NCBI GenBank assembly: GCA_947448375.1
Contig: CANFMY010000007.1
Location: forward strand, 1-35,782
Direction of reading: 5' to 3'
Origin: Comamonadaceae bacterium
GTDB taxonomy: Bacteria; Pseudomonadota; Gammaproteobacteria; Burkholderiales; Burkholderiaceae_C
Length of the DNA stretch: 35,782 bases
Position numbers and translations under genes: made by a program. Shown here in pieces: positions 3,385 through 12,838 of this stretch (positions are counted from its first letter, which is position 1; every line of letters starts with the position of its first letter). The notes beneath the pieces were generated by a model that saw only the letters and a program-made list of their open reading frames with translations, was not told the DNA's origin and did no database searches.

Positions 3385-3468
3385 ACAATGAAGGATCGCG
3401 GTTCTGACTTGAGTTGGACTTGCAGCCCAGATGCTGCAAGGTTCCGCGATTCTAGGAACCTCCCGAGC
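3385..3468. promoter_or_regulatory. Divergent spacer and ftsY leader with two overlapping hairpins
   Basis: This 84-base spacer separates divergent M16 and ftsY starts. On plus, CTTGCAG (3419-3425) pairs with CTGCAAG (3434-3440), and the stem can extend to GGTTCC at 3440-3445. The same GGTTCC can instead pair with GGAACC (3455-3460), which contains the ftsY ribosome binding site AGGAA. The two foldings exclude each other. A TACAAT (3384-3389) resembles a plus-strand -10 but lacks a good -35. On minus, TAGAAT (3449-3454) resembles a -10 for the peptidase gene. Promoter calls are weak; the inverted repeats are directly seen. Confidence 0.4.
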
Positions 3469-4620
<1,152 letters not shown>

Positions 4621-4644
4621 TCGCCGCCTGCTTGCACCAGGGGG

Positions 4645-5631
4645 ATGAAGGTGATCACATCACGACGCACCGTGTTGAAGGCCATGGCCAGTTCTGGCCT
4701 GGTGGCCGGACTGTCTGTGTCAGCGCAGGCCGCCTATCCCAACAAGCCGATTCGGTACATCGTGCCCGTGGCCGCCGGGGGTGGGAGCGACATGGTGGGA
4801 CGCACGGTGTGCGAACGCTGGGCCAAACAGCTGGGTCAATCCATCGTGGTGGACAACCAGGGCGGTGGCGGTGGTGTCATCGCCTGCCAGAACACGGCAC
4901 GCGCCGCCCCCGATGGCTATGTGCTGATGCAAGGCTATGTGGCCACCCTCGGCACCAGCCCGGCCACACGACGCAACCTGCCCTACGACGCGGTGAAGGA
5001 CTTCACCCCCGTGGGCATGATTGGCAGCACGCCCAATGTGCTGGTGGTCAACCCGCAAGTGCCCGCGCAATCGGTGGCCGAGTTGCTCACCTACCTGCGA
5101 CACAACCCCAGCGCCAGCTACGGCTCGTCGGGTCAAGGGTCACTCACGCATTTGACGATGGAGCTCTTCAAGCTCCAGACCCAGATCGACGTCACGCACG
5201 TGCCCTATCGCGGCATCGCTCCAGCCTTCACCGATTTGATCGCGGGCCAGACGCAGGCGATGTTTCCCGGTCTGGCAGCTGCCCTGCCCCACATCCGCTC
5301 CGGTCGTGCGCGCCCCCTGGCCGTGACCGGGCCGCAGCGCCATCCGCAATTGAAGGACACCCCCACCCTGGAAGAACTGGGCCTCAAGGGCTTTGACGCT
5401 GTGCAGTGGTACGGCGTGGTGGGCCCGGCCGGCCTGCCTGCCCCGGTGGTCAAGCTGCTCAACGACACGCTCAAAACCGTGCTGAGTGCCCCCGACCTGC
5501 GTGACAAGCTCGCGGTGGAGGCCATCGAACCGCAGCCCATGAGCCCGGAGGCCTTCGCGCAGTACATTCGCGCCGACCTGGAACGCTGGTCGCGTCTGGC
5601 CAAGGCGCGCCATATCCAACTCGACAACTGA
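4645..5631 (+). CDS. Bug/TctC-family tripartite tricarboxylate transporter substrate-binding protein
   Basis: About 328 residues. The N-terminus has a Tat-type signal SRRTVLK followed by a hydrophobic stretch and an SAQA cleavage site. The mature part begins with the family pattern YPNKPIRYIVP and has the VVDNQGGGGG and THVPYRG segments of Bug proteins, which bind carboxylates or other small acids in the periplasm. No TctA/TctB membrane genes are nearby, the common 'orphan Bug' situation in Burkholderiales. ATG 4645 sits directly against AGGGGG; the in-frame GTG at 4651 has better spacing from that site and may be the true start. It begins 24 bases after ftsY and precedes an MmgE/PrpD gene, with which it may work. 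Confidence 0.9.
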   Translation: MKVITSRRTVLKAMASSGLVAGLSVSAQAAYPNKPIRYIVPVAAGGGSDMVGRTVCERWAKQLGQSIVVDNQGGGGGVIACQNTARAAPDGYVLMQGYVATLGTSPATRRNLPYDAVKDFTPVGMIGSTPNVLVVNPQVPAQSVAELLTYLRHNPSASYGSSGQGSLTHLTMELFKLQTQIDVTHVPYRGIAPAFTDLIAGQTQAMFPGLAAALPHIRSGRARPLAVTGPQRHPQLKDTPTLEELGLKGFDAVQWYGVVGPAGLPAPVVKLLNDTLKTVLSAPDLRDKLAVEAIEPQPMSPEAFAQYIRADLERWSRLAKARHIQLDN

Positions 5632-5769
5632 TGGATCCAAGCCCGGCGACAATCCGCGCTGTCCTATCTTGCCCCGCCTAGCGAGCCCAATAACCCACCC
5701 CTTCACGTTGCGTCGCTTCGCTTCACGCCGAGCTACCGCACCCTTTGACCCCTCGACTCAGGAACATTC

Positions 5770-7146
5770 ATGGCCCGCAACACCCAGGTCAACGCCGACC
5801 ACAACGCCCCGCCCATCACCCAGACCCTGGCCCGCTTTGTCGCCACCCACCCCTCGCGCGGCTGGAGTGATGCGGTGGACCATGAGGCGCACCGCACTTT
5901 CCTGAACTGGCTGGGCTGTGCCGTGGGTGCAGCGCACCACGAGGCGGCTGAAGCGGCCCTGGCCGCCGTGCAGGTGCTGGAGCCCGCCCCGCAGGCCACA
6001 CTGGCCGGTCGCACCGAGCGCGTCGATATCGCCAGCGCAGCCTTGATCAACGGCATCAGCTCGCACACCTTCGACTTTGACGACACCCACCTCAAGACCA
6101 TCATCCACCCGGCCGGCCCGGTGGCATCCGCCTTGATGGCCCTGGCCGAAAAAACCGGCGCGTCCGGGCGTCAGGTGATCGACGCCCTGGTGCTGGGCAT
6201 CGATGTCGCCTGCCGCGTGGGCAACTGCATCTACCCCGACCACTACGACCGCGGCTGGCACATCACCGGCACCACCGGCATGCTGGGCTCGGCCGCCGCC
6301 TGCTCGCGACTGCTCGGACTGGACACCGAGAAGACCGCCATGGCCCTGGGCATTGCCGCCTCGCAACCGGTGGGCCTGCGTGAGCAGTTCGGCACCATGA
6401 CCAAACCCTTCCACCCCGGCGGTGCGGCCCGTGCCGGCCTGATGGCCGCCCTGATGGCCCAGCAAGGCTTCACCGCCAGCCCGCGTGCCATCGAGGCACC
6501 GCGCGGATTTGCCCAGGTGGTCTCGCCCAAGTGCGACTGGAATGAAATCAATGGCGAGCTGGGCGAGCGCTTCGAGATCAGCTTCAACACCTACAAGCCC
6601 TTTGCCTGCGGCATCGTGATCCACCCCAGCATCGACGCCTGCGCGCAGTTGCGCGAGCGCGGCGTGAAGGCCGAGGACATCGAGCGGCTGGAGCTGCGCG
6701 TGCACTCGCTGGTGCTGGAGCTCACCGGCAAGAAAGAGCCCGTGGACGGCCTGCAAGCCAAGTTCAGCGTGTACCACGGCTGCGCCGCCGGCCTGATTTT
6801 TGGCCGCGCCGGCGAGCCGGAATACGCCGACGACATCGTCAACCGCCCTGATATGGTGGCGCTGCGCCGCAAGATCGTGGCCACCGTTGACGACCGCATT
6901 GATGAAGCTGCGGTAGAAGTCACTGCCGTGCTGACCAACGGCACCAGCATCGCGCTGCGCGTGGACCACGCCATTGGATCGCTCGAGCGTCCGATGACCG
7001 ACGCCATGCTGGCGCGCAAGTTCCACGACCAGGCCGACCCGGTGCTGGGCGCCGCCCAGGTGGAAGCCCTGATCCAGGCTTGCTGGGGACTGGGACAGGC
7101 CGGTTCTGTTCAGGCGCTGGTGGAACTGGCCCGCCTGCGCAGCTGA
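5770..7146 (+). CDS. MmgE/PrpD family protein
   Basis: 458-residue cytoplasmic protein of the MmgE/PrpD fold, which includes 2-methylcitrate dehydratase, cis-aconitate decarboxylase and iminodisuccinate epimerase. Visible family features are the FLNWLGCAVG segment near residue 47, ISSHTFDFDDTH (about 95-106), GMLGSAAACSRLLGLD, KPFHPGGAARAG and the YKPFACGIVIHPSID block. AGGAA lies 5 bases before the ATG. The specific substrate cannot be read from sequence. The Bug-type binding protein 138 bases upstream suggests uptake and dehydration or decarboxylation of a di- or tricarboxylate, which is inference. The 138-base gap holds only a C-rich stretch and no clear promoter. Confidence 0.88.
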   Translation: MARNTQVNADHNAPPITQTLARFVATHPSRGWSDAVDHEAHRTFLNWLGCAVGAAHHEAAEAALAAVQVLEPAPQATLAGRTERVDIASAALINGISSHTFDFDDTHLKTIIHPAGPVASALMALAEKTGASGRQVIDALVLGIDVACRVGNCIYPDHYDRGWHITGTTGMLGSAAACSRLLGLDTEKTAMALGIAASQPVGLREQFGTMTKPFHPGGAARAGLMAALMAQQGFTASPRAIEAPRGFAQVVSPKCDWNEINGELGERFEISFNTYKPFACGIVIHPSIDACAQLRERGVKAEDIERLELRVHSLVLELTGKKEPVDGLQAKFSVYHGCAAGLIFGRAGEPEYADDIVNRPDMVALRRKIVATVDDRIDEAAVEVTAVLTNGTSIALRVDHAIGSLERPMTDAMLARKFHDQADPVLGAAQVEALIQACWGLGQAGSVQALVELARLRS

Positions 7147-7191
7147 ACCCCGGACATTCACGGGTGGGATGGCGCGCACCCTCGGTGACCC

Positions 7192-7231
7192 ACCGGGGCG
7201 TCACCCCGGTCACAACCAAGGGATTACCCTT
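7192..7231 (+). other. Two small inverted repeats between MmgE/PrpD and rpoH
   Basis: ACCGGGG (7192-7198) pairs with CCCCGGT (7204-7210) over a 5-base loop, and AAGGG (7218-7222) pairs with CCCTT (7227-7231) over ATTA. The first could end the MmgE/PrpD transcript, but there is no U-run directly after it. They lie upstream of the rpoH operator and promoter. Confidence 0.35.
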
Positions 7232-7245
7232 AAACCCTTTGGGGA

Positions 7246-7272
7246 TTAGCACTCGGTCTGCCGGAGTGCTAA
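7246..7272 (+). promoter_or_regulatory. CIRCE operator (HrcA binding site) upstream of rpoH
   Basis: The sequence TTAGCACTC-N9-GAGTGCTAA is a perfect match to the CIRCE consensus bound by the heat-shock repressor HrcA. It ends 34 bases before the rpoH ATG. Its left arm overlaps the best -35 candidate and its right arm overlaps the best -10 candidate, so bound HrcA would block RNA polymerase. No hrcA, groES or dnaK gene lies in the window. Confidence 0.95.
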
Positions 7273-7275
7273 TAT
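7246..7275 (+). promoter_or_regulatory. Candidate rpoH promoter overlapping CIRCE
   Basis: TTAGCA (7246-7251, 4 of 6 to TTGACA) is separated by 18 bases from TAATAT (7270-7275, 5 of 6 to TATAAT). The predicted start near 7282 gives a leader of about 25 bases with AAAGGA at 7293-7298, 8 bases before the ATG. Such a short leader leaves little room for the long 5' part of an Escherichia coli-type rpoH RNA thermometer. Confidence 0.6.
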
Positions 7276-7306
7276 TGCGCCATACGTATCCGAAAGGACT
7301 ACAACC

Positions 7307-8242
7307 ATGACCGCTATGACAACCGCCTCCCAAGCCCTGGTGGCCCGCAATCCGTGGGCCCTGGTGCCGCCGTTGGGCCACCTGGACGCCTACATTTCGG
7401 CGGTGAACCGAATGCCTCTTCTGACCCTGGAAGAAGAGCAGCGCTTTGCCCGTGAACTCAAAGAGCAAGGCAACCTCGAAGCCGCCGGAAAACTCATCAT
7501 GTCGCACCTGCGCCTGGTGGTGTCGGTCTCGCGCCAGTACCTGGGCTACGGCCTGCCACATGCCGACCTCATTCAAGAGGGCAATGTGGGCCTCATGAAG
7601 GCCGTCAAGCGTTTCGACCCCGACATGGGCGTTCGCCTGGTGAGCTATGCGCTGCACTGGATCAAGGCCGAAATTCACGAATACATTGTGCGCAACTGGC
7701 GCATGGTGAAGGTGGCCACCACCAAGGCCCAGCGCAAGCTGTTCTTCAACCTGCGCTCGATGAAGCAAGGTCTCAAGGCCGATGCCGCCGAGCAAGGCAT
7801 CACCCACCGTGACACCTTGTCTGAAGAGCAGATTGGTGTGGTCGCACGCGAACTGAACGTCAAGCGCGAGGACGTGATCGAGATGGAAACGCGCATGTCC
7901 GGTGGCGATGTGCTGCTCGACCCGGCGCCGCGCGACGATGGCGAGGAAGCCTTTGGACCCATCGCCTACCTGGCCGACGCCAGCCACGAACCCACCGCCC
8001 GCATTGAAGCGCATCAGCGTGACGTGCTGGCCACTGACGGCATTGCGGCGGCGCTGGACGCGCTGGATGCACGCAGCCGTCGCATCGTGGAAGAGCGTTG
8101 GCTCAAGGTCAATGACAACGGCTCGGGTGGCATGACGCTGCACGAACTCGCGGCCGAATACGGCGTGAGCGCCGAGCGCATCCGCCAGATTGAAGTGGCC
8201 GCCATGAAGAAGATGCGTGCGGCGCTGGCCGACTACGCGTAA
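7307..8242 (+). CDS. rpoH: RNA polymerase heat-shock sigma factor RpoH (sigma-32)
   Basis: 311-residue alternative sigma factor that directs RNA polymerase to chaperone and protease genes after heat shock. It has region 2 (LIQEGNVGLMKAVKRFDP, about 88-105, and the YALHWIKAEIHEYI recognition helix region) and region 4 with the helix-turn-helix YGVSAERIRQIEVAAMKKM near the C-terminus. The diagnostic RpoH box QRKLFFNLR is intact at 142-150, separating it from RpoD, RpoS and FliA. Length is slightly above the usual 284-300. The start has a good ribosome binding site. The CIRCE operator over its promoter implies HrcA repression. Confidence 0.96.
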   Translation: MTAMTTASQALVARNPWALVPPLGHLDAYISAVNRMPLLTLEEEQRFARELKEQGNLEAAGKLIMSHLRLVVSVSRQYLGYGLPHADLIQEGNVGLMKAVKRFDPDMGVRLVSYALHWIKAEIHEYIVRNWRMVKVATTKAQRKLFFNLRSMKQGLKADAAEQGITHRDTLSEEQIGVVARELNVKREDVIEMETRMSGGDVLLDPAPRDDGEEAFGPIAYLADASHEPTARIEAHQRDVLATDGIAAALDALDARSRRIVEERWLKVNDNGSGGMTLHELAAEYGVSAERIRQIEVAAMKKMRAALADYA

Positions 8243-8311
8243 ACCGCGTCAGGCCCCACGCGAGCCTCTTGCGGGTCTCGAGGGGCATCTTCGCTGCCCG
8301 GGCGGGACGCT

Positions 8312-8334
8312 GATCCCCCCTTGCGTTGGGGGTC
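8312..8334 (-). terminator. Hairpin at the convergent end of sco and rpoH
   Basis: A CCCCC/GGGGG stem with flanking GA/TC pairing lies exactly at the sco stop (TGA at 8335-8333) and in the 90-base convergent gap after rpoH. There is no T-run. A second, imperfect GC-rich stem (CCCC...GGGG with inner CGAG/CTCG) lies around 8253-8285. Either could act as a terminator or transcript-end stabiliser; support is structural only. Confidence 0.35.
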
Positions 8335-8953
8335 ACTTCAACAGCAAGCGAATGTCGGCCACCAAGCCCTCCATTTTGCTGCCATAGCGGCTGTACAAGC
8401 GCAAGCGCCCTTGCGGGTCAAACAGGTAGCTGCCGGCTGAATGGTCCATGGTGTAGCTGCCCGGCGTCTTGCCGTCCACCTTCTTGTAGATGATCTTGAA
8501 CTCCTTGGCCACCTGCGCCATGGCCTCGGCGTTCTCGGGAATCAGCGCCAGGAAGGTGGGATCGAAGTTGCCCATGTAGGCCTTGAGCACCTCGGGGGTG
8601 TCACGCGCGGGGTCCACGGTGATGAAGAGGCCTTGCAGGCGATCACCCTCGGCCCCCAGCTGGCGCTTGATCTCCACCCACTCGGTGAGCGTGGTGGGGC
8701 ACACATCGGGACACTGGGTGTAGCCGAAGAAGACCGCCACCACCTTGCCCTTGAAGTCGTCCAGCGTGCGCACTTGACCGTGCTGGTCAGGCAGCCGAAA
8801 CGACCGTGCGTAGTCGGCACCGGTGATGTCGATGGAGACAAACTGCGGCTTGTTCGGGTCACAGGCGGACACGCCTGTCAGCGACGCGATGGCCAGCGAC
8901 GTCAACAAGGCACGACGCCGAAACAGGTTCAGGGGTGGGCGCGGTGCGTTCAC
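8333..8953 (-). CDS. SCO1/SenC family copper chaperone lipoprotein
   Basis: 206-residue thioredoxin-fold protein that delivers copper to, or reduces, the CuA site of cytochrome c oxidase subunit II at the outer face of the inner membrane. After an N-terminal hydrophobic segment comes a lipobox-like VSAC with Cys31. The copper ligands are CPDVC (Cys81, Cys85) and His171 in [11 protein letters not shown]. Start is a GTG at 8953 overlapping the ctaB stop by 4 bases (GTGA), which also keeps the signal sequence at its natural length; the long in-frame upstream extension is antisense-like readthrough of ctaB. It is last in the surf1-ctaA-ctaB unit, fitting a role in oxidase assembly. Confidence 0.92.
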
Positions 8954-9840
8954 AGGTAATGGTCGATCAGCAAGGCGGCAAACAGCAGACTCAGGTGAAT
9001 GAGCGAGAAGCGAAAGGTCTTGCGCGCCAGGGCGTCCGAATACTCGCGCCACAAAGCCCAGGCGTAGACGCAAAACATCACGCTCAGAATCACCGCGCTC
9101 ACCAGATAAAACCAGCCGCTCATGCGATAGATGAAGGGCATCAGGCAGGCAGCCAGCAACACCCAGGTGTAGAGCAGAATTTGCAGGCGAGTGAATTCGT
9201 TGCCATGCGTCACCGGCAGCATGGGCAGGCCGGACTTGCGGTAGTCCTCCACGCGGTACAGCGCCAACGCCCAGAAGTGCGGCGGCGTCCACAGAAAAAT
9301 GATGAGAAAGAGAATGAGTGCTTCCGGGCCCACATCGCCAGTCATGGCCGCCCAACCCAACACCGGCGGCATCGCTCCGGATGCACCCCCGATCACGATG
9401 TTCTGGGGGGTGAGGGGCTTGAGAATGACGGTGTAGATCACCGCGTAACCGACAAAGGTGGCAAAGGTCAGCCACATGGTGAGCGGGTTGACCCACGCGT
9501 ACAGAATGACCGAGCCCGCCAGGCACAGCACAAAGGAGAACAGCAGGGTGTCACGGTCACTCAACTCGCCCTTGGCGGTAGGACGCCAGGCGGTGCGTTT
9601 CATGCGCGCGTCGATCTGCTTTTCCACAATGCAGTTGAACGCCGCCGCCGCGCCGGCCACCAGCCAGATGCCCAGACACGCCAGCGCCGCCAGGCCCACA
9701 TCGGCCCAGCCGGGCACACCGGGCACGGCCAGCACCATGCCAATCAGGGCACAGAACACGATCAGCTGGATCACCCTGGGTTTGGTCAGGGCGTTGAACT
9801 GCCGCCATCGGGACGGGAGGGAAAGCGCGGATGTCGTCAT
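8950..9840 (-). CDS. ctaB: Protoheme IX farnesyltransferase (heme O synthase)
   Basis: 296-residue polytopic membrane prenyltransferase of the UbiA superfamily (also called CyoE). It adds a farnesyl group to heme b to make heme O. Visible are the Asp-rich motif [15 protein letters not shown], the [21 protein letters not shown] block after the fourth helix, and the [14 protein letters not shown] loop. ATG 9840 overlaps the ctaA stop as ATGA, indicating coupled translation; the product is the substrate of ctaA next door. The [23 protein letters not shown] start matches the family length, and the in-frame extension to 10032 is a shadow of ctaA. Confidence 0.95.
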
Positions 9841-11030
9841 GCGAAGGGCCGGGTGAGAGACGGTGAGATTGTGACAGCCGTGGTGGCTCGAGAGGTGAAC
9901 AAGGTCCAGCTCAGACACAGCAGCAAAGCCGCCGAGCCGCCCGTGTGCGCAACGGCCGACAACAATGGCCAGTCCAAGAGCACGTTGGACAAGCCGGTGA
10001 GGAATTGCCACAGCAAGAGCAGGTTGAGCCACCGCCCCGCGGTCTTGAAGCCTTGTCGTTTCCAGCGCCAGGCCAGTGTGCCCAGGAGGATCAGGACCCC
10101 ATACGCCATCAGCCGATGGGCGTAGTGAATGGCGGTGAGCGCTTCAAAATCAATCGGGCGGCCATCGGTGGTCATGCCCAGATGACGCCACAGGCTGAAG
10201 CCCTGCGCGAAATCCATCACGGGCCACCAGCTGCCCTGGCATTGCGGGAACGTGTTGCACGCCAGCACCGCATAGTTGGTGCTGACCCAGCCCCCGAGCA
10301 AAATTTGCAGCAGCACCACCAGCACGGCAACCACGCTGAACCCTCGCAATGCAGCGGTCATGGGCAAGCGCTGCGTATCGCCGCTGGCCAGTCGCTGCTG
10401 TGCCACCTGGCTCGCCAGCAACACCAGCAACACCAACCCACCCAGCAGATGCAGGGTGACAATGGCCGGCAACAATTTGAGCGTGACGGTCCAGGCACCA
10501 AAGGCCCCTTGCAGGCACACCCAGAACAGGGTGGCCCAGGGCCACCCCAGGTGGAGGGGCTCGCGGGAAGCCATTGCGGATGGATGCGAGGAATCCGACC
10601 GCCTGCGACGGGCACTCCACGCCAGCCACGTCACGAACAGGGCCTGCGTGAGGATAAGCACGCCCACGGCTGCAGCCAGGTAGCGGTGGATCATCTCGAT
10701 CCAGGCCTTCTCGTGCGTCACGGGACCGGTGGGCATCTGCGTCTGCGCCTGGCTGATCAAGGCCTGTGCGCCCACGGGGCTTGCGTGCCCATAGCAGCCC
10801 GGCCAGTCCGGACAGCCCAGGCCCGAATCGGTCAGTCGGGTGAAGGCCCCAAACAGCACCAGATCAAAGGTCAGGAACAAGGTCAGGAGGGTCAGTTGCC
10901 GCAGACGTCGGTGGGTCGATGTCTGGCGATGGCGCAGCCAGACCCAGCACAGGGGCCCCAGCGCCAGCAGAAGGCCGGTGAGCATGATGTGCAGGACAGG
11001 GCTCCAGTCGACCAGGCGGGTGGCATCCAT
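9837..11030 (-). CDS. ctaA: COX15/CtaA family heme A synthase
   Basis: 397-residue inner-membrane protein with about eight hydrophobic helices. It oxidises the C8 methyl of heme O to the formyl group of heme A for cytochrome c oxidase. Family marks are the [22 protein letters not shown] region after the first helices, [12 protein letters not shown] with a heme-ligand His, the central [13 protein letters not shown] block and [12 protein letters not shown] with a second His. It overlaps ctaB by four bases at its 3' end and follows a small Sco-like membrane protein by only three bases, so it lies inside the surf1-to-sco operon. Confidence 0.95.
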
Positions 11031-11033
11031 GGC

Positions 11034-11729
11034 TCAGCGTCCCGCCTTGTCCCAACCCGAGGCCGCGCGCAGCAGTCGCTCCAGGTCCTTTTTGACCAGC
11101 ACCGCCTGCTTGGCATCGATGTCAGGGCCGAAGCGCATCATCCACTCGCCTTGCGGGTCCACCAAAAACCAGTGGTCGCTCAGGCTCTGACCTGACTGGG
11201 GAGATAACCATTGCGAGAGCACCTCGCGCGGCACGCGCAACACCACAGCCTCGGTCAGTCCGGGCTGGAGGGTGGCGGGCACCGGGGCATCATCGTCAAT
11301 CAACCAGACCCAATCGGTGCGGTCACGTTCCTTGCCCAGTCCGGTGAGGATTTGCCGCTGCAAATACAGGTGCTGCTGACAACGTTCATCGCAAGCGCCA
11401 GACGACACGCTGATGAGCAGCCATTGGCCCTGGAGTGACGTGAGCTGCCGGGCTTCCCCCTGCAAGGTGCGCGTGGGCACATCGGGCAAGGACCGGGTGG
11501 GCTGGATCAGCTCGCCATGGTTGCGGCGCGCCTCGGGACGGATCACGTAATAGGTGAAGTAGGACGCGATGACCGGTGCAGCACACACCAGCAACACCAA
11601 CAGCATGCGCCAGCGACCCTGCGACGTGCGTTGCTCACTGGCCTGCCCCACGGCCTGTGGATCAGGCAGGTCATAGACCGTCAGCCCCAGGGGATGGTCG
11701 GCGGAAGAATCAGGAAGGTCTTGAGGCAT
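11034..11729 (-). CDS. Membrane-anchored Sco-like protein of the oxidase assembly operon
   Basis: 231 residues, usually left as a hypothetical or transmembrane protein in related genomes. A cytoplasmic N-terminus of about 40 residues precedes one membrane helix (about 42-62). The periplasmic part has a thioredoxin-like pattern: QGQWLLISVSSGACDERC with Cys113 and Cys117 in CXXXC spacing, then SDHWFLVDPQG with His186. This arrangement resembles the copper triad of the Sco protein 2 kb downstream. It sits between surf1 (20-base overlap) and ctaA (3-base gap), so a role in oxidase assembly is very likely. The copper-binding role is inferred, not shown. Confidence 0.8.
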   Translation of the reverse strand: MPQDLPDSSADHPLGLTVYDLPDPQAVGQASEQRTSQGRWRMLLVLLVCAAPVIASYFTYYVIRPEARRNHGELIQPTRSLPDVPTRTLQGEARQLTSLQGQWLLISVSSGACDERCQQHLYLQRQILTGLGKERDRTDWVWLIDDDAPVPATLQPGLTEAVVLRVPREVLSQWLSPQSGQSLSDHWFLVDPQGEWMMRFGPDIDAKQAVLVKKDLERLLRAASGWDKAGR

Positions 11730-12513
11730 GTCGGGCAGGCTGTAGGAATTGGAACCACAAGGTCAGCACAAAGAGGAGCGCACACAGGGCAAACCACTGA
11801 AAGGCATAGCCCAGATTTTTATCAGCCGTTGAGCCCACAGCGGGCCAATCGCGGCGCAGGCCTTCATCATCGTCATCGGTCTGGATCACGTAGGCCAGGA
11901 CGGGAATGCCGCTGTCCTGCCTGAATTGTTCCAGGGTGAGATTTTGCCGAATCCTGGATGACCCCGATGCCGACCCCAGGGTTGTCGCGCTCTCCGTTGA
12001 CTCCTCCCCCAGTGACAGCAAGCGACCGGGTCCGGTGGCCAGCACCCCGTCCACCTCGACCACTTCCAGCGTGGTTTGCACAGTCGGCAACACGCTGCGG
12101 TCTTGCGAAATACGCGGGGCCCAACCCCGTTGCACCAGTACCGCCGTGTCGGCATCGAGTTGCAAGGGGGTGAGCACCCAGTAACCGGCTTGCCCACGGT
12201 GGCTGCGGTTCTCCAGCCAGACGGTGTATTGCGGCCGCCAAAAGCCCTGCAGGCTCACGCGGCGGTGCATCAGTGCATCGGCCAGCGGGTAGTGCAGGTC
12301 TTGCAAGTCGTCGTGGCCCAACTCGGGTTGGTCAGCCCGGGCATCCAGCACGGCTTGCTGCGCCAGCTTTTCGTCGGCACGCGACAACTGCCAGCGCCCC
12401 AGGGACGCCGTGACGCCCATCGCCACCAGCGCGCTGAAGGTCACCACCCACCAACGCAGGCTGCGCCCCGCACGCGGGGTCGACGATGGTGGGGCATTGT
12501 GGGGGGCACTCAC
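11710..12513 (-). CDS. SURF1 family cytochrome oxidase assembly protein
   Basis: 267-residue protein with the SURF1 plan: one helix near the N-terminus (SLRWWVVTFSALVAMGVTASLGRWQLSRA, helix about 20-38), a periplasmic domain, and a second helix near the C-terminus (YAFQWFALCALLFVLTLWFQF). Conserved elements include LGRWQLSRA, the VSLQGFWRP and GYWVLTPLQL segments and VLVQRGWAPR. SURF1 proteins help insert heme A into subunit I. GTG 12513 is chosen because AGGA lies 7 bases upstream and the protein then has normal length; the in-frame stretch to 12819 overlaps the divergent DUF2909 gene. The start is only 15 bases from that gene's ATG. Confidence 0.88.
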   Translation of the reverse strand: MSAPHNAPPSSTPRAGRSLRWWVVTFSALVAMGVTASLGRWQLSRADEKLAQQAVLDARADQPELGHDDLQDLHYPLADALMHRRVSLQGFWRPQYTVWLENRSHRGQAGYWVLTPLQLDADTAVLVQRGWAPRISQDRSVLPTVQTTLEVVEVDGVLATGPGRLLSLGEESTESATTLGSASGSSRIRQNLTLEQFRQDSGIPVLAYVIQTDDDDEGLRRDWPAVGSTADKNLGYAFQWFALCALLFVLTLWFQFLQPARHASRPS

Positions 12514-12528
12514 GCGATAATCCTGTCC

Positions 12529-12750
12529 ATGAAATGGCTTGTTGCACTGGCCTTCGTGGCCATCCTGGGTAGTCTGGCGTCGGCGCTCATCTTCATGATG
12601 CGCGATGGACGCAACGGCGCTGCCAAAACCAACCGCATGGCCCGCGCACTGGGCTTTCGGGTGGGGTTCTCCATTCTGCTCTTCTTGTGCATTCTGCTGG
12701 CCTGGAAATTGGGCTACATCCAGCCCACCGGGATTCCTGTCGGTCAATAG
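12529..12750 (+). CDS. DUF2909 twin-transmembrane small protein
   Basis: 73-residue protein with two predicted helices: about 2-23 (LVALAFVAILGSLASALIF) and about 44-65 (GFRVGFSILLFLCILLAWKLGY), joined by a basic loop RDGRNGAAKTNRMARA. It matches the DUF2909 family of small proteins found beside cytochrome oxidase genes in betaproteobacteria; function unknown. It is the only plus-strand gene in the oxidase locus and splits it into two minus-strand units. No Shine-Dalgarno is visible before the ATG, and the 15-base gap to surf1 means its promoter must lie inside surf1. Longer upstream in-frame extension is a shadow of surf1. Confidence 0.85.
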   Translation: MKWLVALAFVAILGSLASALIFMMRDGRNGAAKTNRMARALGFRVGFSILLFLCILLAWKLGYIQPTGIPVGQ

Positions 12751-12838
12751 CAGGGCCCTGCTCGAGACACGACCGGACAAGGCGCTGACGCGGTCCGGGC
12801 TCTCGCTCACGGCTCTCACGCCATGACCGCCTAAACGA

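Follow-up and report, generated by a model that had tools for sequence, protein, structure and literature searches.

Accounts of heat-shock control usually treat HrcA repression and sigma-32 activation as alternative systems or as systems that run in parallel. The DNA analyzed here, a 35,782-nucleotide stretch from a Comamonadaceae bacterium (the window), carries an HrcA operator (CIRCE) over the likely promoter of rpoH, the gene for sigma-32, and so raises the question of whether HrcA controls the heat-shock sigma factor itself. The features of the locus are collected in Table 1.

Table 1. Features at the rpoH locus, in window coordinates.
Feature	Position	Strand	Remarks
Place of the relatives' sigma-E promoter, apparently decayed	7235-7261	+	slots set by hand from the Comamonadaceae phase
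CIRCE (predicted HrcA operator)	7246-7272	+	arms 7246-7254 and 7264-7272, loop 7255-7263; 18/18 arm letters
Possible weak -35, TTAGCA	7246-7251	+	4/6 consensus letters; 18 nt before the -10
Predicted extended -10, TG-C-TAATAT	7267-7275	+	right arm plus TAT; predicted start near 7282
Likely ribosome binding site, AAAGGA	7293-7298	+	read from the sequence
rpoH, heat-shock sigma factor sigma-32	7307-8242	+	311 aa; TIGR02392; sigma-70 regions 1.2, 2 and 4

The rpoH reading frame passes the NCBIfam RpoH model TIGR02392 rpoH_proteo with 388.6 bits (cut-off 323.1). The CIRCE before it reads TTAGCACTC-GGTCTGCCG-GAGTGCTAA and matches in full the consensus tested, the inverted repeat TTAGCACTC-N9-GAGTGCTAA. 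It is the sole match in the window at three or fewer mismatches, and CIRCE matches arose in 0 of 100 dinucleotide shuffles of the window. The gap from its end to the rpoH ATG is 34 bases, which places the operator where a heat-shock gene has its promoter. A sequence-only reading of this DNA had claimed a perfect CIRCE over the rpoH promoter, and the arm matches and shuffles bear it out. The site is a predicted HrcA operator, from which we infer binding and regulation by HrcA.

The promoter itself is less canonical than that reading had it. Its TAATAT -10 stands and can be extended: TAATAT (7270-7275) is made of the right-arm TAA followed by TAT, and the TG at 7267-7268 also comes from the right arm. 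Its TTAGCA -35 is weak, and the letters are operator letters anyway, so that their conservation is uninformative. A consensus sigma-70 promoter was rejected, as a consensus scan of 7120-7330 reported none and did not pick up the extended -10, a result that speaks against the preferred reading given below. What is kept beyond the operator is an nAT directly after the right arm that gives TGCTAAnAT. It is present at 186 of 216 rpoH sites versus 2 of 39 groES sites and at all 35 rpoH sites read in the window's genus, and it is weaker in a class-wide sample (55/80 sites). The possibility that nAT extends the operator palindrome was rejected; it lies outside the palindrome, because the mirrored left flank has it at only 5 of the 216 sites. 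Counted from the -10 by convention, the leader is predicted to be about 25 nt long.

HrcA control presupposes an hrcA gene, and the genome of the window (3.0 Mb, 96.11% complete) has one match (PF01628, 148.5 bits, cut-off 22.2), in a gene truncated by a contig end. At three or fewer mismatches the genome holds two CIRCE sites, one at rpoH and one at groESL. On the second contig GroES and GroEL were recognized by eye from the translations, and the CIRCE there is perfect. Directly before it lies a sigma-32-like promoter, CTTGAAA-N12-CCCGTATGA, similar to the CTTGAAA-N11/16-CCCCAT consensus for sigma-32 in PMC545781. Because both a perfect CIRCE and a sigma-32-like promoter lie upstream of groES, groESL seems to be under HrcA as well as sigma-32 control.

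The presence of CIRCE at rpoH and at groESL, the latter also with a sigma-32-like promoter, points to a coherent feed-forward loop in which HrcA represses rpoH through the operator described here and acts on groESL both directly and by way of sigma-32. We put the probability of this reading at roughly 0.85. The order of events that we infer is as follows. An HrcA dimer on CIRCE would cover the stretch from -35 to -10 and block RNA polymerase, so that rpoH is kept low. In other systems it is established that HrcA loses activity when misfolded protein occupies GroEL; here the same loss of activity would derepress rpoH. The new sigma-32 would transcribe the heat-shock genes, and sigma-32 and GroESL would rise together. 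HrcA would in this way repress groESL and also the sigma factor that activates it. The cascade from HrcA to sigma-32 that the sequence-only reading had suggested survives as the best reading, given the hrcA gene, the CIRCE over the likely promoter and the co-occurrence of the two across genomes.

That co-occurrence was followed through successively wider samples. Among the 80 nearest named rpoH loci of the matches listed, mostly from Comamonadaceae and other Burkholderiales, one (L075) is without upstream DNA; all 79 others have CIRCE upstream of rpoH (66 of them perfect, 12 at one mismatch and 1 at two), which answers the earlier suggestion that the rpoH upstream regions of relatives be searched for it. 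The window's genus is represented by 37 genomes, 36 with an rpoH match, and CIRCE is present at 35 of the 35 rpoH sites read (31 perfect, 4 with one mismatch). In the remaining genome (G025) rpoH is in two pieces; it was left out of the motif counts, and by coordinates its CIRCE lies 33 nt before the rpoH match. The loops of the operator differ among the rpoH sites of relatives. In a set of single genomes from 23 further families of the order, CIRCE was found at 0-2 mismatches in 21; of the two exceptions, G045 has it at four mismatches, and G055 lacks both hrcA and the rpoH CIRCE.

The class-wide sample consisted of 115 genomes, one per family, 107 of them with an rpoH match. The class is presumably the Gammaproteobacteria of GTDB, because the named relatives are Burkholderiales, and we take that class to include the beta-proteobacteria. 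The window's own genome was excluded, and the upstream regions of 100 of the other 106 were read (G070, G084, G097, G103, G135 and G143 were left out). CIRCE at three or fewer mismatches precedes rpoH in 75 of the 79 genomes with hrcA versus 5 of the 21 without detected hrcA (Fisher p 5.8e-11), a comparison uncorrected, like the others here, for shared ancestry. Two sets of exceptions count against HrcA control of rpoH: four hrcA-bearing genomes with no such CIRCE before rpoH (G081, G115, G147 and G152) and five that keep CIRCE without detected hrcA (G073, G118, G132, G159 and G165). The CIRCE-rpoH arrangement is thus not special to Burkholderiales. Because CIRCE at rpoH co-occurs with hrcA across genomes, HrcA control of rpoH is the best reading of the operator; this control looks ancestral to the class, with a tendency to vanish along with hrcA.

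Many relatives carry GGAACTT shortly before CIRCE. A GAAC starting 11-17 nt before the rpoH CIRCE, a range fixed after the Burkholderiales and class sequences had been seen, is present at 99 of 129 sites whose genome has RpoE (TIGR02939) and at 1 of 58 whose genome does not. It is present at none of 39 groES CIRCE sites, a control drawn from 41 sites (40 plus the window genome's own, L003), of which 39 could be oriented by the GroES motif and L301 and L311 were dropped. Further upstream, at offsets 18-30, GAAC occurs 8 times in 1677 positions. The motif, the two positions it takes and the letters of the -10 had been written down before the class regions were fetched, and these regions give 58 of 71 sites with RpoE versus 0 of 9 without (p 2.1e-6; RpoE matches were taken except those of G085 and G172). 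The named loci, from the best 80 listed, give 27 of 37 versus 0 of 13 (p 3.2e-6) for 50 of the 79 that were hand-picked for the RpoE search with their upstream sequences already known; 16 of the 29 left out of these counts carry GAAC. A genome of the named set counts as RpoE-positive when its best E is at most 3.1e-65, the next value being 7.5e-23; two genomes counted as positive, G219 and G221, lie just below the family cut-off. The 35 genus sites and 13 named sites that lack RpoE are non-independent and may represent one or a few losses; the class sites are less exposed to this.

The letters at the other end of the putative promoter shift with GAAC. Where GAAC begins 15 nt before CIRCE (the 15-nt phase), the left arm ends in the TC that stands 16 nt after GAACnn, and an A occupies loop letter 3 at 52 of 59 sites versus 0 of 42 in the 11-nt phase (controls: 17/57 rpoH sites lacking RpoE, 3/39 groES sites). 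In the 11-nt phase, in which GAAC begins 11 nt before CIRCE, TC falls on loop letters 3-4 at 38 of 42 sites versus 1 of 59 in the 15-nt phase (4/57 and 3/39 in the same controls), and loop letter 7 is A at 41 of 42, compared with 14/59 in the 15-nt phase, 27/57 RpoE-lacking sites and 8/39 groES sites. Both phase contrasts have a Fisher p of about 1e-21, which ignores shared ancestry. The 11-nt phase comes nearly entirely from the window's family and close kin, with 1 of its 42 sites from the class sample. In most sampled relatives with RpoE, then, a putative sigma-E promoter is interleaved with CIRCE, its -10 inside the operator. Escherichia coli K-12 has GAACTT-N16-TCTGA before rpoH, which we take to be promoter P3, and no CIRCE there (best 8 mismatches); the layout is the same as that of the interleaved promoter of the relatives, whereas the window is without a sigma-E promoter. 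P3 of E. coli rpoH is named in PMC3490749, and according to the available text of that paper SigE of Bordetella bronchiseptica transcribed the promoter of its own rpoH (fam) in vitro, which supports a sigma-E input to rpoH.

Some sites depart from this pattern. An A at loop letter 3 is also commoner at rpoH sites lacking RpoE (17/57) than at groES sites (3/39), which counts against the reading. Of the 92 class and order sites whose genome has RpoE, 20 have no GAAC in the 11-17 nt range, and 10 of the 37 named loci with RpoE (from the best 80 listed) have none on the upstream side. Five of those ten (L122, L124, L132, L139 and L141) have GGAAC 7-8 nt after CIRCE instead, with TC at a spacer of 16 or 17; L138 has GGAAC at +14 past CIRCE with no TC at the expected spacer; and L125, L133, L136 and L137 have neither GAAC before CIRCE nor GGAAC after it. 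With L129, L135 and L142, the downstream arrangement is found at eight loci; in all 8 the spacer to TC is 16 or 17, and all 5 tested for RpoE have it. The putative sigma-E -10 of these loci ends at or almost at the rpoH start codon, because of which any transcript from it would lack a leader or begin within the annotated reading frame. L044, the sole RpoE-lacking genome with GAAC in place, reads CGAACAAC, without TC at spacer 16, and was taken as chance.

At L255 (G067) a second CIRCE-like half, AGAGTGCTAAAAT, partly read, closely precedes the CIRCE of rpoH, as if the operator were doubled. L248 (G120, without detected hrcA) and L231 (G147, with hrcA) have a good GAACTT and left arm upstream of rpoH, with the operator damaged or shifted, and may represent stages on the way to losing CIRCE.

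RpoE is over the cut-off in none of the 37 genomes of the window's genus (best E 6.8e-12; the window's own genome, 3.7e-7); several of these genomes are incomplete, which makes single absences weak but not the overall pattern. The window's genome has three sigma-70 region 2 matches over the cut-off, rpoH among them, and one below. In the window, the slots that hold the sigma-E promoter in relatives read CCCTTT (-35, 7235-7240) and, inside the loop, TCTGC (-10, 7257-7261). That the window has a sigma-E promoter of its own was rejected because of the -35 slot and the lack of RpoE over the cut-off in its genome. A sigma-E promoter has probably decayed here over an operator that is intact, with CIRCE and the extended -10 kept.

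How much HrcA contributes to the level of sigma-32 is a separate matter. The main control of sigma-32 in E. coli is post-transcriptional, and given this precedent repression of rpoH could matter little: HrcA would bind as a minor input and damp the basal level, while translation and proteolysis set most of the sigma-32. The first 249 nt of the rpoH mRNA do fold slightly better than shuffles (z -1.53), and an Rfam search of 6900-8400 gave no match; neither result decides for or against an RNA thermometer. The sequence-only reading had gone the other way and taken the short leader to suggest that transcriptional control replaces the RNA thermometer; this finds no support, because the E. coli thermometer lies largely within the coding sequence and a short leader is therefore compatible with an element of that type. 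We nevertheless regard a minor role as unlikely, as the operator is retained in nearly all of the hrcA-bearing class genomes (75/79) and in a genus without the sigma-E promoter. Less likely still is that the repeat works mainly in RNA, with a start further upstream and a CIRCE hairpin in the 5' leader that acts on the stability of the mRNA or on its translation. In favor are the perfect inverted repeat of CIRCE and the RNA role described for it in Gram-positive bacteria, but the conserved TGCTAAnAT places the likely start past the repeat, and the presence of CIRCE tracks hrcA. A chance or relic sequence without function in this organism is the least credible of all. No point speaks for it directly; in its favor, 5 of the 21 class genomes without detected hrcA keep the site. 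Against it, none is expected by chance (0/100 shuffles), hrcA is present, and all 35 genus sites have CIRCE, 31 perfect, with differing loops.

CIRCE before rpoH has a precedent. In Geobacter sulfurreducens a perfect CIRCE lies upstream of rpoH at position -51 (PMC545781, available text), so that the guess of the sequence-only reading that such a site might already be listed was right for this organism. Like the window's genome, G. sulfurreducens has hrcA and carries CIRCE at groESL and close before rpoH; it differs in that hrcA-grpE-dnaK-dnaJ also has CIRCE, compared with rpoH and groESL only here, and the available text names neither a sigma-E promoter at the rpoH site nor wider conservation of it (PMC545781). 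The operator is also that of the classical HrcA/CIRCE system at groESL, of which the window's genome has a perfect copy. The groES CIRCE differs from the rpoH CIRCE in its surroundings, with nAT after it in 2/39, GAAC absent before it in 39/39, and a different overlap with the likely promoter. A CTATnA-type motif is common directly before CIRCE in the 39 groES controls (L003 and L272-L310 less L301); it resembles the end of a sigma-32 -10 and suggests a layout of operator and promoter different from that at rpoH. CIRCE and HrcA have no occurrences in the main text of the B. bronchiseptica fam promoter paper (PMC3490749), and a literature search of partial coverage returned no paper joining HrcA, rpoH and sigma-E. 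As far as the available text of these sources goes, CIRCE before rpoH was already known, and what appears new is its breadth, its link to hrcA and the phase-locked putative sigma-E promoter inside the operator.

These observations suggest an evolutionary reading that we consider probable, with less confidence than the circuit itself. The ancestral rpoH control of beta- and gamma-proteobacteria would have been a composite element of about 45 bp, an HrcA operator with two promoters sharing its letters: the left-arm TC plus the loop, or the loop alone, would serve as the sigma-E -10, and the right arm as the housekeeping extended -10. HrcA would gate both envelope-stress and basal inputs, and the inputs would then have been shed one by one. 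If this is true, E. coli has no CIRCE or HrcA and kept sigma-E, the window's genus lost RpoE and kept HrcA, and in part of the Burkholderiales the sigma-E promoter was shifted to the far side of CIRCE, downstream of it, maybe freeing the sigma-E input from HrcA. HrcA and sigma-32 look wired in series here, with HrcA upstream; this wiring seems ancestral to a large group, and E. coli would be a derived exception. The interleaving with sigma-E offers a testable case of one short DNA element that integrates stress in the cytoplasm with stress at the envelope, and natural variants lacking one of the inputs are available for comparison.

The neighborhood of rpoH was read as well. Past the gene, on the minus strand (8333-12819), are the cytochrome oxidase assembly genes SCO1/SenC, COX15/CtaA and SURF1, with an ORF without a Pfam match between the last two. 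Before it, on the same strand (3388-7146), are an SRP54-type GTPase resembling FtsY (3388-4620), a TctC-type receptor (4645-5631) and an MmgE/PrpD protein (5770-7146). In E. coli ftsX immediately precedes rpoH, and the gene order is presumably ftsY-E-X-rpoH; the ftsY-like gene and rpoH of the window may represent an old neighborhood broken by the tctC-mmgE pair.
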